From the NCBI GenBank assembly GCA_950295325.1, contig OX485806.1, forward strand, positions 16,120,001 through 16,184,000: 64,000 nt of DNA, written 5' to 3'. Source of the stretch: Polytrichum commune (Eukaryota; Streptophyta; Polytrichopsida; Polytrichales; Polytrichaceae). The notes under the pieces are model-generated. The model worked only from the letters and a program-made list of their open reading frames with translations. It did not search any database and was not told where the DNA came from. Below are positions 1-36,062 of this stretch, one piece after another. Position 1 is the first letter of the stretch. Every line of letters begins with the position of its first letter. A program made the position numbers and the translations under genes.

Positions 1-5
1 AGACC

Positions 6-1013
6 ATGGTCAATACCAGGGGTCCCTTAGTACCCGTCAAACCGCCACGCTGTGTGGAGCTCCTCGTCGCCGACCACCAACATCGAATGTGGGCAATCGG
101 GAACACGAACCTGATCGCACCAATTTCGATCGTCATGTGGAAAACCTGGGCTGGCCTCTCGGATTCGGAGATAGAACAATGCAAACAGCAGGCACTTAAT
201 AACATTGGCGTGCTACGTGCTCCAGTGGACTTGCTGCCGGCCTTCTCTCTTAACATGTTCGAGCATTCTAAATGCACGACTACAGAAGTGAAGCTGCACA
301 CTAAACAGGATCTACCCACGGGCTATAACAGAAAAGAGTCTCACCTAGCGGAGCTCTGGAATGTTCAAAGACCCTATATGAGATGCTTGTGCAATCCTAG
401 GGCGATCAGTGGGTGCAAAGGATCCATAGTCTGGTTTGACCATGCCATGTGGACAATGGTTAACAAGCTAGACATGTTCTTCCCGAATCAACCAACCAAT
501 AACACCAGGTTCGCTGCTTTCATGCTGTGGCTCAGCAGCGCAGCAAAAATCGCAGTAAAGGCTGCAGTAGTGTTCCACATTGGAAGAGAACACATGGTGA
601 CAGCGGCGACACAACTCGCTGATAATTCTAACCAGAAACTACTACCTGACCTAAGCGATGCTCCACTGGCTATCAAAATCGAACGACTCCTGAGAGGGCC
701 AAAATTCTCTCTGCTGCACCCAGGATCACCGAGCCCTGCGCCATCGCCGTTCAAGAAACAGCGACTCAACCTCAATACCTCACCCTCACAGCAGGGTGCA
801 CAGGGAGGGCGCGGTAGATCTCCAAACGGTCGCGGGTTTACTCCCCGAGGTGGGAGGTTTAGGGGTCGCGGCAGTGGCCGCAGCTTCCATCCGCGTGACA
901 GCTCGCAGGGGACACCACCCGGCCAAGCCAGGGCAGCAACCACCGAAAATACACAGGGAGCAGGTGGCCAGTCCCCGCTCCGAGGACGTGTTCTATTGTG
1001 GGATGGGATTTAA
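6..1013 (+). CDS. ORF1 of the retroelement: RGG-tailed, gag-like protein of unknown family
   Basis: This encodes 335 aa from the first ATG in the window. The frame is open to the window edge, so the true start may lie upstream. I do not recognise the globular part (about residues 1-235), which is rich in Trp, Cys and His. It is followed by a Ser/Pro linker and then, at about residues 266-298, a cluster of RGG/RG and GRG motifs typical of RNA-binding tails. Position directly upstream of a reverse transcriptase, on the same strand, suggests a nucleocapsid or RNA-chaperone role, as gag or ORF1 proteins have in other retroelements. That role is inference. The ORF is more GC-rich than the RT gene after it. 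The +1 frame is also open across 796-1053 but stops at 1054 and 1066, so a simple frameshift would not join it to the RT. Confidence 0.6.
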   Translation: MVNTRGPLVPVKPPRCVELLVADHQHRMWAIGNTNLIAPISIVMWKTWAGLSDSEIEQCKQQALNNIGVLRAPVDLLPAFSLNMFEHSKCTTTEVKLHTKQDLPTGYNRKESHLAELWNVQRPYMRCLCNPRAISGCKGSIVWFDHAMWTMVNKLDMFFPNQPTNNTRFAAFMLWLSSAAKIAVKAAVVFHIGREHMVTAATQLADNSNQKLLPDLSDAPLAIKIERLLRGPKFSLLHPGSPSPAPSPFKKQRLNLNTSPSQQGAQGGRGRSPNGRGFTPRGGRFRGRGSGRSFHPRDSSQGTPPGQARAATTENTQGAGGQSPLRGRVLLWDGI

Positions 1014-1221
1014 ATGGAATGTGAGCTTACTTAAGCAAGTTTTACACTACTCTTAGGATGCATCCTAACAGCTAGTTGGCTATAATTTTGAACTCACAGA
1101 GACAGGTCGCACATTACGACATAATGCACTTGGACGCCGTTATGTGTCACGTGACAAGAATACGGATCGAACTGGGATAGTACACGTAAACTACTGCAGT
1201 AGGGCATTAGAGTGGGTGAAT

Positions 1222-3246
1222 ATGAAACAATTATTCTCAGAGGTGTTCACTCAGTTGTCAATACCACATATTATACCTTTTTTGCTTAACATTATGTTCG
1301 CTTGGAATTTTCTGCCTAATGTCTCCAGAGTTTGTTATAGACCTGCTTTAGTATTCAAAGATTTCAATATGGGTGCACACATGACGGGCTCATACGAATG
1401 TATGTGTAACAGTTCTAAGAGACTGATACAGTTTCTAGACCCAGATACCATAGATGATACCAATGGTGATCCAAGGATGCATGTACGCACCATGGATACA
1501 ACCATAATACATCACCATGGATTAAGAGAAGCAGTGACCTTAGGATTGAATCACATACCTTTACGAAATACTAATATACGTGAGACTGTCCAAGTGGTAA
1601 TGGATACGTTTGAACAGGTTTGCCGACTTTTGAAAGTAGACGAACTTATTGACGTGGACATGGCATCTAAAATCGTTCGAGCAAGGTCAAGAGACAAACT
1701 GTTATCAGCCATAAAAGAAAATCTTTTTGGCTTCAGGTATTCAAAACCATACCTCTTCTCTGAAAAGGCAGTGGAAAATGAATTGTCTTGGCTCATGAAG
1801 CATGTATTCATATCGGGACTAAATAAAGCAACTAGTAATGCTTGTTTCATATGCATTACTCACATAAGAAATCAAGCCTTGATAAGACTCAACAGTCCTG
1901 ATTTTGAACCATGCCAACATGACAATGCATGGGACTCTGTAGAGGATGTCACAAACAAGGTAAAGATGGAATTGAAATCCCTCTTACCCGAACTACCCAT
2001 ACATGAGGAAGAACTTCCTTATATAATGGCGATATACAAAGTCCACAAAATGAAATATAGGTGGATCTCCAATGCATTTGGGACCCTATATGTAAATATT
2101 GCCACACTCCTTACCATATCAACTATGGCACTACTTGATGAGGTAAAGGAATGGACTACTCTCACGGTCAAAGGGTATAGTAATTTCCTTGGTATTGACA
2201 CGTCAATATATTGGATTATAGACTCAATTACAGATTTTACCTTAAACATTCCTGAAAGTATCAACAACATATATGTTGCTGATATAACAAGATGTTTCGA
2301 GTCTATTCCAATTTCGGGCAAAGATACATTATATGACGCTATGGAGTTTATCACTCAAATTGGTATATCCAATATGAAACGAAAACATCCTAAATCTGAA
2401 CACCTCCTCTGGGTTAGGATTAACGACAAAGGAGTTACCACTAAAGCACTATGGGCATCTAAATGCCCTAAGTATGGGGAATGGTTCCCAATACCAATCC
2501 CTAAATTCCTACAAATTCACAAATGGTTGACAACTAACTGTTATGTACGATTGGGAGACCATGTATGGAAACAGGTACTCGGTATACCCATGGGTTTTTC
2601 ATGTTCGCCTCTTTGGTGTAACTTATATCTCATGTCATATGAGATTAAGTTTATACAGAGGTTAGCTAGACTTGGACAAACAACAATCCTAGCTAAATTT
2701 AAGTACGCATTTCGATATATCGATGACTTGTGTTGGATTAACGTGGGTGAGGCTAATATGTTCCTCGATCCTACACAACCAAGACACAGAGATAATCCAT
2801 TATGGATCTACCCATTGGATATTATTGAAATCAAGACTGAAGTGTCTCAGTTTTCATTAAACCATCCACAGTCTGGCATCAAAGCACATTTTATGAATGT
2901 GTTAATCACTGTTACAGACGAGGACTCTGGTCTATTCATCATGCAGAAGTACGATAAACGACGTGAGTTACCATTCAGTTACTCTCAGTTTATAAAATTC
3001 AAGTCGAACAGACCGGTTAAACAGGCTTACAATGTGGTTATTTCCCAAACTGTACCCATACTATACCTATCAAGCAACCAGGACGTAGCTTTGCAGGAGA
3101 TAAGAGCTCTGTTCACAGTGCTATCTGCTAATGGGTTCCGCAATACCAAACTACAACAAATAGTGATTAAGTTCCTGACTAACAACCACTTTCCTGCGTT
3201 GCGATTTAATAAAGACCATCTTCTGCAACTGCTGCAAGGTATGTAA
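1222..3246 (+). CDS. Penelope-like reverse transcriptase, catalytic motifs intact
   Basis: This is 674 aa from the first ATG at 1222. The frame is open from 1069 without an in-frame ATG, so the start could be further upstream, or joined to ORF1 by splicing or recoding. Domain order fits Penelope-like elements: a CxC pair (Cys60, Cys62), then HVRTMD (87-92) in the conserved N-terminal region; fingers KVHK (273-276) followed by YRWISN; palm motif A DITRCFESIP with catalytic Asp354; motif B GIPMGFSCSPLWCNLYL from 454; motif C YIDD (499-502) with both Asp present; HFMNV (556-560), equivalent to the family HFLDV; and a thumb with KSNRP (594-598), equivalent to the SNHP signature. The reading frame has no stops, so this copy is young or under constraint. 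No GIY-YIG endonuclease follows the thumb, which suggests an endonuclease-less type. A domesticated rvt-type gene is the main alternative, but the upstream gag-like ORF argues for a mobile element. Confidence 0.85.
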   Translation: MKQLFSEVFTQLSIPHIIPFLLNIMFAWNFLPNVSRVCYRPALVFKDFNMGAHMTGSYECMCNSSKRLIQFLDPDTIDDTNGDPRMHVRTMDTTIIHHHGLREAVTLGLNHIPLRNTNIRETVQVVMDTFEQVCRLLKVDELIDVDMASKIVRARSRDKLLSAIKENLFGFRYSKPYLFSEKAVENELSWLMKHVFISGLNKATSNACFICITHIRNQALIRLNSPDFEPCQHDNAWDSVEDVTNKVKMELKSLLPELPIHEEELPYIMAIYKVHKMKYRWISNAFGTLYVNIATLLTISTMALLDEVKEWTTLTVKGYSNFLGIDTSIYWIIDSITDFTLNIPESINNIYVADITRCFESIPISGKDTLYDAMEFITQIGISNMKRKHPKSEHLLWVRINDKGVTTKALWASKCPKYGEWFPIPIPKFLQIHKWLTTNCYVRLGDHVWKQVLGIPMGFSCSPLWCNLYLMSYEIKFIQRLARLGQTTILAKFKYAFRYIDDLCWINVGEANMFLDPTQPRHRDNPLWIYPLDIIEIKTEVSQFSLNHPQSGIKAHFMNVLITVTDEDSGLFIMQKYDKRRELPFSYSQFIKFKSNRPVKQAYNVVISQTVPILYLSSNQDVALQEIRALFTVLSANGFRNTKLQQIVIKFLTNNHFPALRFNKDHLLQLLQGM

Positions 3247-3437: not shown

Positions 3438-3464
3438 CTCTCTCTCTCTCTCTCTCTCTCTCTC
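3438..3464 (+). repeat. CT dinucleotide repeat
   Basis: About 27 bases of uninterrupted CT, near the 3' end of the retroelement. Confidence 0.95.
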
Positions 3465-3750
3465 CCTATCTTGCTCTTGTTTAAAGCCATATATTTTGTT
3501 TAAGCTTGTATTCCTTTACTTTATACCTATCATGCACACATAAATAAAAAAGTAGTTACTGTATGGACTAAGTGTTCATAAGTATAGATGAATGATACAA
3601 GGTGACTAGGGTTAAGGATGTAGAACACATCCCTAACACGTGGTAAAATTAGGGTTGTACAGAACTTACCTTGGGTAAGATCTCCAATATAAACCCGTAA
3701 ACCCTAAAAGAGGCTCTTTTTTACCATTCGCACAAGGGCTTGGTGAGGTA

Positions 3751-4550
3751 ACTTGGAGCACACTTGCTGGGATACTAGATACGTGTGCTAAGTGAAGTAG
3801 AGGATACTTAGGCTATTCACAAAGGAGAGCATTCTACTTGTGGTGATACAATCATGGCTAAAGAACAGGTTTGAACACCCATTTGACATTTTGTAATGAG
3901 TGTTACTACTAGCAATACTAATATGCATGTAATGTAAGTTTGATGTGTGTGACATGGATAACAACTGGGTCCTGCTGTTATTTACCTCGTGTACGTAACT
4001 AATCCTCAATTATTTGTTGGTTGGTTGCATGGGCACAGGTGAGGCAGGCCCTTCACACTTACAATACTACGAAGTATTGTGAATATGACATTTTATGTAT
4101 TCCTTTTGGTTGATACTACTAGGCATATCTCCTGGTATGTTTTCCATATATATAATAGTTAGGGTACATCCTTGTTGGAGCAATGCATGAAGAGAGGTAA
4201 TTAGATCTACAAAGGTATGATGGGGTCAGCCACAATTTGTTTTTGAGTACTTAGGAACTATGTATGAGTACTGAAACCCTAAGTATGATACAAATACTTA
4301 TGAAAGTACAGTATATCGCATTATTACATGTTTGTATTGTTTACATACAATTAGACATGGGCGTTTACAAAGAGCATTGAACATACTTAGCCTTAAAACG
4401 ATATGATGAGAAGGTTTGATTTGAGGTAATGAGGGTTATGAAAAAGTTCCCACCCACCCACCCTTGCATTGCAATGAAGAAGACATTGAAGGATTAGGCC
4501 TCTGAAAAGAGGAAGTTCAAGCTTTGCAAAAAGCGTTGAAAAGTCAGCTC
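3751..4550. other. Gene-less stretch, nothing recognised
   Basis: AT-rich unique-looking sequence with no supported ORF, TIR or RNA gene. Confidence 0.6.
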
Positions 4551-4551
4551 T

Positions 4552-4915
4552 CTCTCCGATTCTTCATAGGATATGAAACATGAAACTAGTGCGAGATGAT
4601 TAGCAATTCGCAATCGTGTCCGTAGGGCCACTTTCCTCATGATTTTTGGAGCTCGTTTGATTACCGTATTTGTTGTCTAGTAAGTGAAGGGTCTAATGAG
4701 TTAATAGATGGTCATGTAGGTTCCCCGATCATGTTGAATGTTACATCTAGATGGTTGACAACTTTTGAGCACGTAGTTCAACTTCTTTTCGACACATGTT
4801 TTTTTTTGTGGTTTGTTCTTATGTTCATATCCTCCCCCCCCCCCCCCATTCACCACTCAAATACATTTGTCCGTTTAAGGTGAGGCTTCACATTAGGCGC
4901 ACCTGCCTTATAATG
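4552..4915 (+). repeat. Interspersed repeat R1, copy a
   Basis: R1 is a roughly 350-450 bp repeat recognised by ordered landmarks: TAGGATATGAAACATG, then CTCATGATTTTTGGAGCTCG, then a block near GTCTAGAATGGTTAAC, TTTTGAGCACGTAGTCC, CACCACTCAAATA, and a final CACATCTACCTTA. This copy has all of these in divergent form and carries a poly-C tract at about 4838-4853. No coding capacity is seen. The family is unclassified. Confidence 0.7.
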
Positions 4916-33993: not shown

Positions 33994-36062
33994 ATGGGGG
34001 CGACAGGGGGAGGGAGAGAGGCAGGGAGCGAGCAGGTGGTGGAATCGGGCCACCAGGATGTGGTGCATGATGTGGCGATGGATTTTTACGGCAAGAGGTT
34101 GGCGTCCTGCTCATCCGATCGGCTGATCAAGGTGTTCGCCGTGGGTTCCAGTGATGCTCCGACCGCGTTGGCCACTCTTTCCGGGCACGAGGGGCCCGTG
34201 TGGCAGGTCGCGTGGGCGCATCCCAAGTTTGGGAGCATCCTTGCTTCGTGCTCGTATGATCGGAGGGTCATCATTTGGAGAGAAGGTGCCGAGAATGAGT
34301 GGTCTCAAGCCCAGGTAAAAGAGAAAGAAGAAAACCCTGTGATGATGCATTTCGCTGTTCCGTGCGGCATTAGGGTTTGTGGAAATGTTGAATGACGAGG
34401 GAAGAGTATGGCCTCTTTCATGTGGATTATGATGTTCAAAATTCATCTCCCTTGTCTCTGAGTGATGAGTGATGAGGTGGGTTCCTCCCCGCAGCAATGT
34501 GGATAGGTTATCAGAATATTAAAAAGAATCCGGAACAGGTGATGTGACTAATAAGGATTGGATGGCGCGTTGCCACAGGCATTCCAGGAGCATGTGTCGC
34601 GAGTGAACAGCTTGTGACATTCTGATGAATTTTCTTTTTACATTAGGGTTTGCGGAAATTGTGAATGACGAAGGAAGAGCATGGCTTCTTCTATGTGGAT
34701 TGTGAGGTCCAGACCTCATCTTCCTGGACTCAGTGATGAGTGATGGTTCACTTGCTTCCCGCAGATAGCTATCAAATTTTAAAAAGGAATTTGTAACAGA
34801 TTATGTGACTCATAAGGATTGGATGAAGCGTTGCACAGGCATTCCAGGGGCATGAGTCCTCAGTGATTAGCATCTGTTGAGCACTAAAGGGATTCGGACT
34901 TTGTCTAGCTTGTGACTTTCTGATGCATTTGGCTGACGAGGGGGTATGGCTTCTTGAATGTGGATTGTGGGGTGTACAACTTATCTCCCTGGTTTTGGAG
35001 TGATGAGTTCATCCTGTAGAAATGTGGATAGCTGATCAAATTTAAAAAAAGAATCTGATTTGACTAATAAGAATTCGGGTGTTGCCACAGGTGTTCCAGG
35101 AGCATGAGTCATCAGTGAACAGCATCTGCTGGGCACCTCAGGAATTTGGACTGTGTCTAGCTTGTGGATCATCAGATGGGACTATCTCAGTCTTGACTCA
35201 AAAGGTGGATGGGTCATGGGAAAAGGCCAAGATTGAGCAAGCCCATCCGGTTGGAGTGACATCTGTTTCCTGGGCCCCTGCTAGTGCCCCAGGCTCTCTT
35301 GTTGGGGCAGACCCTGGACCTGTGCAGAAGCTGGTTTCGGGCGGTTGTGATAACACTGTCAAGGTCTGGAAGTTCTTGAATGGCAGCTGGAAACTTGACT
35401 GCTTCCCTCCTCTGTCCAAGCATGTCGACTGGGTGCGAGATGTTGCATGGGCTCCCAATCTTGGACTTGTGAAGTCCACAATTGCAAGTTGCTCCCAGGA
35501 TGGGACTGTCATCATTTGGACTCAGGTAATTGACACAGAGCTTTTGTGAGTATGTATATGCATGTGTAGGAACTAGTCATTCCAGAGGGGAATACAGGCT
35601 TTCTGAATTATTTCCAATTTGAGTACAGTAACTGTTCTCTGAATTTATGCGGGAATTGAAAAACTGGAAGAGTTGAATGATGCCAACTGTTACTAGCTCT
35701 AGGATGGTGGATGCAGGCTAGGCAATGAAGCTAGTAGAAAAAGGTCAAGTCATCTTTCATGTGGAACTCGTGTACATGTAGTTGATTCATTCATTCCATA
35801 TTAAAGGGAAGGTGATTTAGATTTTCCTCTTCACCTTACATTTTCATCTTCTTATAAGTACTAAATGATTATTTGCTTCTTGCAGGCCAAGGATGGGGAC
35901 CAGTGGCAGCCATTGACATTGAATGACTTCAAGACCCCAGTGTGGCGAGTCAGCTGGTCACTTACAGGAAACATTCTAGCTGTGTCCGACTCGAGCAACA
36001 AAGTGACTCTGTGGAAAGAAGAGGTGGATGGGGAATGGACACAGGTCACTAGCGTACAATGA
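33994..36062 (+). CDS. SEC13: SEC13, COPII coat and nuclear pore WD40 protein
   Basis: Three phase-0 exons: 33994-34314, 35091-35525 and 35886-36062 (stop TGA), with GT-AG introns (CAG/GTAAAA, CACAG/GTGTT, CAG/GTAATT, TGCAG/GCCAA). They encode 310 aa, the normal SEC13 length. The ATG is the first after an in-frame TAG at 33955. Six WD40 blades are visible, including HEGPVWQVAWAHPKFGS (blade 2), HPVGVTSVSWAPA and GGCDNTVKVWKF (blade 4), DWVRDVAWAPNLG (blade 5) and FKTPVWRVSWSLTGN (blade 6). SEC13 forms a six-bladed open propeller completed by a blade from SEC31 (COPII vesicle coat at the ER) or from NUP145C/NUP96 in the nuclear pore Y-complex; it also serves in the SEA/GATOR complex. The protein reads like land-plant SEC13. 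Intron 1 carries two fossil copies of the exon-2 start. Confidence 0.95.
34341..34918 (+). repeat. Fossil tandem copies of the intron 1/exon 2 junction in SEC13
   Basis: Two degenerate units (about 34341-34619 and 34620-34918) repeat the segment that ends in the real exon 2 start (third unit, 34919 to about 35170). Each has a pseudo-acceptor (CCACAG ending 34578; GCACAG ending 34838) followed by ATTCCAGG and a copy of the first 40-100 exon bases. Read in phase 0, pseudo-exon 1 stops at 34615-34617 and pseudo-exon 2 at 34878-34880. Confidence 0.85.

Follow-up and report, generated by a model that had tools for sequence, protein, structure and literature searches.

A Penelope-like retrotransposon of Polytrichum commune without a recognized endonuclease lies in CT runs and may start reverse transcription beside a junction hairpin

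Penelope-like elements (PLEs) that carry two open reading frames (ORFs) and no endonuclease (EN) have been described before (PMC6431247). EN(-)PLEs are harbored by plants (PMC9033089, PMC12477314) and are regarded as exploiting chromosome ends or breaks (PMC3846280). Here, we analyzed a PLE at the left edge of a stretch of 64,000 nucleotides of Polytrichum commune DNA (assembly GCA_950295325.1, contig OX485806.1, positions 16,120,001 to 16,184,000), hereafter called the window. A preliminary description of this stretch had pointed out an ORF (ORF1) upstream of a Penelope-type reverse transcriptase (RT) and had taken the combination of such a protein with an EN-less RT to be unusual. Because two-ORF EN-less PLEs are already described (PMC6431247), the anatomy of the element is not new. 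Its unusual features are others, which that description did not contain, namely, terminal repeats, insertion sites in CT runs, a covarying hairpin, solo repeats and missing AUG codons. In the literature searched, we found neither CT-run sites nor abundant solo repeats nor a covarying junction hairpin for any PLE; that search, which several key papers lay outside, returned no report of a CT-targeting PLE.

On balance, and with slightly better than even confidence, we read the element as an intact, recently mobile, EN-less Penelope-like retrotransposon with direct repeats resembling long terminal repeats (LTRs), the RT of which would pair a hairpin-adjacent CU tract with a GA-repeat primer. Read in this way, it is a retroelement that scatters 1.1-kb solo repeats into CT runs of a plant genome, and its insertion at CTCTCT runs suggests that it is copied in by pairing of its RNA with those simple repeats.

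Anatomy and coding capacity of the element

The window boundary falls inside the element, leaving the 5' part of ORF1 and one terminal repeat to its left. When the contig was extended leftward beyond the window (window coordinate = L009 coordinate minus 6000), both ORFs were found enclosed in a 6.3-kb unit (L009-L010 4221-10556) with the order (CT)n, 1118-bp terminal repeat (pLTR), ORF1, RT frame and second terminal repeat. Its features are the following, in window coordinates unless given otherwise:

-1771 to -654 (L009 4229-5346): 5' pLTR copy, partner of the 3' pLTR
L009 5358-5377, about 620 nt left of the window: junction hairpin, loop NNGGA(A/T)
1..1013, + strand: 3' part of ORF1 (full frame L009 5427-7013, starting 574 nt left of the window)
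384..443, + strand: C-x-C-x7-C-x8-H motif of ORF1, conserved in an alignment of 10 ORF1s
723..1010, + strand: Arg/Gly-rich tail of ORF1
1014..1068, + strand: inter-ORF gap, followed by CAG (..CCTAACAG)
1069..3246, + strand: RT frame, 725 codons, uninterrupted (L009 7069-9246)
2281..2283, + strand: RT motif A aspartate (..VADITRCFE..), D405, invariant in an alignment of six RTs (A1)
2716..2727, + strand: RT motif C, YIDD, invariant in the same alignment and inside the RVT_1 match
3438..4555, + strand: 3' terminal repeat (pLTR), 1118 bp, 100% identical to the 5' copy
3438..3464, + strand: (CT)n tract opening the 3' pLTR, 27 nt
4499..4512, + strand: hairpin CCTCT-GAAA-AGAGG close to the pLTR 3' end, with covariation in 1 of 14 predicted pairs
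4548..4556, + strand: terminal CT run at the pLTR end, merging with the flank

Between the terminal repeats, only ORF1 and the RT frame exceed 173 codons, the best Pfam match among ten of the smaller interior frames, on both strands, has an E value of 0.077, and no GIY-YIG domain was recognized. Since the repeats bound the element and its interior has no other large frames, a missing GIY-YIG is not concealed beyond the window; the preliminary description, which saw no endonuclease, thus holds for the complete element. Supply of a GIY-YIG from the neighborhood was rejected as well, none of the 13 GIY-YIG places in the genome being at an RT locus. Three of the GIY-YIG frames (267 to 285 codons; L088, L089) lie on a contig of 67,364 bp (C9) and are perhaps mitochondrial intron endonucleases. 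Ribozymes were likewise not detected: no hammerhead turned up when two copies were scanned with Rfam (E up to 5), and a scan of the pLTR-interior junction (E up to 10) gave neither a hammerhead nor another known ribozyme. In a search of five elements for CUGANGA, the motif was missing from the window family's terminal repeats, and the two instances in the distal part of L040 were unconvincing.

The Penelope-type RT motifs quoted in the preliminary description are all present, in a frame free of stops as had been stated, and conserved catalytic motifs occur in the six aligned RTs. They include D405, which we take to be the catalytic aspartate of motif A. RVT_1 was matched by all six, the match of the window RT, its sole one in Pfam, lying below the curated cut-off (20.3 bits versus 29.6, E 4.8e-4). 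No reference relatives of this RT were found in viral contigs, GTDB genome contigs or PDB, and it is the RT motifs together with the anatomy that point to membership in the PLEs. We consider it very improbable that the element is instead LTR retrotransposon-like with an unusual RT. Near-perfectly identical 1.1-kb direct repeats, plus solo repeats, would suit such an element, but these repeats start and finish in CT rather than TG..CA, the RT has merely a weak RVT_1 match, and the interior offers no further frame above 173 codons and, in ten of the smaller ones, no Pfam match better than that given above. None of the hallmarks of LTR retrotransposons (TG..CA repeats, integrase, protease, RNase H) was found in the element.

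After extension, ORF1 measures 528 codons from stop to stop. In its C-x-C-x7-C-x8-H motif, a possible zinc site judging from the residues, C316 and C318 are invariant and C326 and H335 nearly invariant among 10 ORF1s. The first protein had been described as RGG tailed and gag-like, and it does resemble a nucleic acid-binding protein. Its Arg/Gly-rich tail has 6 RG dipeptides in the last 96 residues, but the term RGG box was slightly generous, as a single strict RGG occurs in the 336 ORF1 residues encoded within the window.

A nucleotide search of the 408-Mb genome returned 45 matches, nine of which cover the whole query. Both ORFs are open in six of these full copies (the window copy, c1a, c2, c4b, c7 and c3), and the other three are decayed by a stop in ORF1 (c5), several breaks (c1b) or a broken RT frame (c4c). 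The two pLTRs of a copy are 100% identical in seven of the nine cases, 99.7% identical in c5 and 99.3% identical in c1b, and in a distant family (L039, RT 61% identical) they still share 99.9%. Paired repeats were found in 10 of the 11 elements inspected; for the exception (L040, RT 43% identical), the stretch was too short to judge.

Protein searches of the genome gave at least 64 RT and at least 87 ORF1 matches, which merged into at least 50 RT and at least 59 ORF1 loci. Among the matches listed, 35 of 50 RT loci have ORF1 on their 5' side in the same orientation, and 24 of 59 ORF1 loci are followed by no RT match. Where at least 1900 nt of RT is present, ORF1 was found upstream in 22 of 26 cases, and the pairing extends to families with 43% RT and 35% ORF1 identity. 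The two ORFs are co-inherited, and the refutation that the preliminary description had foreseen, an ORF1 never accompanying this RT, does not apply. Of the four near-complete RTs lacking ORF1, one is a merged double locus and another is L042 (C3:42431700-42436000), which combines an intact RT frame of 730 codons with an ORF1 missing its middle and is perhaps mobilized in trans. Purifying selection acts on both ORFs. Of seven pairs, three had a usable synonymous rate (dS) for both, and in these the ratio of nonsynonymous to synonymous rates (dN/dS) was 0.044 to 0.074 for ORF1 and 0.117 to 0.127 for the RT.

Plain AUG starts were rejected, since the first in-frame methionines are not conserved and the codons upstream of them are. 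Indeed, the first ATG of the RT, at 1222, is not conserved, and conservation of the protein starts upstream of it. Over the 51 RT codons preceding the first methionine, the window copy and c3 differ by 9, 3 and 16 changes at codon positions 1, 2 and 3, and over the 27 corresponding ORF1 codons, L040 and L041 differ by 5, 0 and 19. Other windows were noisier, both for the RT (3, 1 and 3 between the window copy and c7; 12, 15 and 23 between L040 and L041) and for ORF1 (1, 2 and 2 in 14 codons between the window copy and c3). Taken together with protein conservation across families, these patterns led us to read coding sequence ahead of any conserved AUG in both ORFs. When nine ORF1 starts were compared by eye, conservation began at a phase-0 CAG resembling a splice acceptor; the candidate acceptor ahead of the RT is harder to make out. 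Relative to ORF1, the RT occupies the +1 frame in the six copies compared by coordinates. A direct frameshift leading from one ORF to the other was rejected in the window family, since stops lie between the two frames. To judge from these putative splice sites, a spliced leader probably supplies the AUG for both ORFs. In the distant clade L040-L044, the stretch from the ORF1 stop to the RT frame holds a conserved CTGGTATGTACAG-like string resembling splice signals, and upstream of ACAG, the copies differ by 1 nt in frame.

Insertion sites, solo repeats and the junction hairpin

We examined 19 insertion sites, those of the nine full copies and of the ten best-scoring solo pLTRs, and found CT runs on both sides of every one. 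The left and right runs measure 22 to 74 nt and 7 to 32 nt, respectively, at the full copies and 29 to 60 nt and 7 to 36 nt at the solo pLTRs. Since the element itself carries CT at both ends, such flanks by themselves prove little. The evidence that CT belonged to the sites comes instead from comparing runs and from the positions of some insertions. In eight of the nine full copies, the outer left run exceeds the element's internal CT run (13 to 35 nt) in length, and L039 has 55 nt of TC at its left against 20 nt inside. Similarly, the CT run at the internal pLTR-to-interior junction is exactly CTCTCTCT, 8 nt long, in all nine full copies, and the outer right run exceeds 9 nt at 8 of the 19 sites (two full copies and six solos). 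At least two insertions (c1a and a solo at C4:0.42 Mb) lie in older pLTRs, within the CT end, and the remaining 59.4 kb of the window lacks any CT/AG run of 8 units. Any target duplications would be masked by the CT repeat. At c5 (C5:21.12 Mb), an older repeat of 76% identity begins about 190 nt downstream of the insertion, suggesting that c5 is nested at an older relative.

The sites are not telomeric. All nine full copies sit at least 8 Mb from contig ends, and their junctions carry CT runs instead of telomeric repeats. CT repeats were rejected as the host telomere, which is TTTAGGG, found at 6 of the 12 contig ends examined (two further ends were masked).

Candidate pLTRs in the genome numbered 779, of which the best 40 were scored. 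Of the 41 full-length pLTR places listed, 29 have no ORF1 or RT match within 3.5 kb. Among these places, 17 pLTRs share a rounded identity of 100%, comprising nine solos and the eight paired repeats of four complete elements. The solo pLTRs may be products of recombination or direct insertions.

Close behind the internal CT run lies the junction hairpin. In the window copy, its stem starts 11 nt past the CTCTCTCT that closes the 5' pLTR, and at five other loci of divergent families, it starts 11 to 15 nt past the CT run. Six stem positions are paired in all 13 distinct forms, each with at least two pair types, and a seventh is paired in 10 of 13; because the forms were collected with patterns taken from hairpins already seen, this count leans toward structure. 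Scoring within each clade against 500 shuffles and slid partners gave an agreeing result. In the clade of nine forms, 95% of positions were paired, and the covariation score of 0.373 (shuffle mean, 0.193) was reached by none of the 500 shuffles, while the number of pairs changed on both sides was unremarkable (matched in 53 of 500). In the clade of four forms, 100% were paired, and the score was reached by 1 of 500 shuffles. Among 18 further stretches 5' of ORF1, 14 carried exact forms and three carried variants (one with a stem mismatch); the sole stretch without the hairpin was L086. Folding was only moderately better than in shuffled sequences (z of -1.3 to -2.4 in four stretches), and the hairpins close to the pLTR 3' end showed hardly any covariation.

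Much of this could also be produced by a conventional EN-less PLE, a possibility that we regard as real if doubtful. The CUCUCU 3' end of its RNA would prime at chance breaks, the hairpin would serve packaging or translation, and the solos would arise by recombination. Recombination between direct repeats is ordinary, and the paired repeats are 99.3 to 100% identical in the 10 elements measured. EN-deficient PLEs are also believed to exploit breaks or exposed ends of chromosomes (PMC3846280). What this explanation accommodates poorly is that nine solos already stand against four complete elements at rounded 100% identity, among the places listed, and that the position of the hairpin beside the CT end is left unexplained.

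A possible route of insertion

Our favored reading, pairing of a hairpin-adjacent CU tract with a GA-repeat primer, draws on a PLE of anole, in which reverse transcription starts within the RNA, in a stem loop situated 111 to 118 nt from the start of the ORF, and the site of RNA binding is presumed to be within the initial 172 nt of that frame (PMC11167929). A hairpin directly behind a CU tract suggests a similar internal start, with the CU tract as the start and the GA strand as the primer. From this precedent and the sequence of the element, we infer the following mechanism. ORF1 would act like a nucleocapsid protein and coat the RNA of the element, and the RT would bind the hairpin at the pLTR-to-interior junction. 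At a break or nick in a CT/GA microsatellite, the exposed 3' end of a GA-repeat strand would then prime cDNA synthesis, which would begin on the adjoining CUCUCUCU. The (CT)n that opens the pLTR would be copied into the end of the cDNA, and this end could reanneal with the remaining target repeat and close the insertion. A start at the first junction of the RNA would yield a solo pLTR, and a start at a downstream junction would yield a full pLTR-ORF1-RT-pLTR copy. One step, a hairpin-positioned start on the CU tract, would in this way account for the solo repeats and CT sites as well as for the constancy of the 3' end.

Several points weigh against this reading. The outer CT runs at both ends are partly element borne, the runs could have lengthened by slippage after insertion, and in c4c, the outer run is shorter than the inner one. 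In the hairpin, pair-type counts are unremarkable (matched in 420 and 464 of 500 shuffles in the two clades), and the covariation controls leave the relatedness among forms in place. Moreover, recombination between the repeats could yield solo pLTRs, the coding status of the pre-AUG stretches depends partly on short, noisy windows, and the start in the anole PLE is not homologous to the cut DNA (PMC11167929). Finally, ORF1 could conceal an unrecognized nuclease cutting CT/GA repeats, in which case the element would not truly be EN-less. CT runs at 19 of 19 sites, a constraint on ORF1 exceeding that on the RT and the conserved C-x-C-x7-C-x8-H motif would fit this idea. We nevertheless hold it to be unlikely, as no Pfam match better than E 0.16 was obtained with 10 ORF1s, the ORF1 profile matched PDB entries at the RG-rich tails only (E 0.62 or worse), and such a tail fits RNA binding.

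More tentatively still than the hairpin-adjacent start itself, we propose that the element represents an EN-independent lineage that exchanged telomeres for CT microsatellites as its source of primers, with a hairpin-positioned CU start, full or short interspersed element (SINE)-like solo copies and AUG-less ORFs expressed via a shared spliced leader. Its copies are young and nearly identical, its target repeat is defined and its hairpin covaries, which makes the place where synthesis starts, the primer and the signal in the RNA directly testable.

Outside the element, the window contains an exon of a SEC13-like WD40 gene (35064-35546, + strand), whose best PDB match is SEC13 homolog B (E 7.1e-75), a name used for plant proteins. 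The host is photosynthetic, a gene for the RuBisCO large subunit being present on a contig of 146.6 kb.

Comparison with known systems

The EN(-)PLEs Athena and Coprina and those of Selaginella and conifers have two ORFs and an RT without GIY-YIG, as does the window element. They are typically 4 to 6 kb long (PMC6431247, PMC9033089), compared to 6.3 kb here. Their transposition is described as largely confined to chromosome ends (PMC3846280), whereas the window element lies in CT runs of a host with TTTAGGG telomeres. The element works in the manner of these PLEs but does not share the telomere feature, and we therefore do not class it as Athena or Coprina. A further difference is that no hammerhead was found in the two copies scanned.

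Canonical Penelope and Poseidon elements are bounded by pLTRs, like the window element, and the RNA stem loop of the anole PLE near the pLTR-interior junction (PMC11167929) resembles its hairpin. However, they carry a GIY-YIG and target AT-rich DNA, whereas the window element has no GIY-YIG, a separate ORF1 and CT-run sites. Its pLTR is also long, at 1.1 kb versus 218 and 193 bp in two Penelope families of A. vaga (PMC3846280).

Chlamys and Naiad are PLEs of the green lineage, like the element described here. They reportedly insert in simple repeats and are said to carry an N-terminal GIY-YIG.

Lastly, in the bdelloid Terminons, a short repeat at the RNA end beside structured RNA is proposed to pair with the target, in likeness to the window element (PMC6431247). 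Terminons use telomeric repeats, carry a hammerhead and reach up to 40 kb, whereas the window element has CT runs and a plain covarying hairpin.

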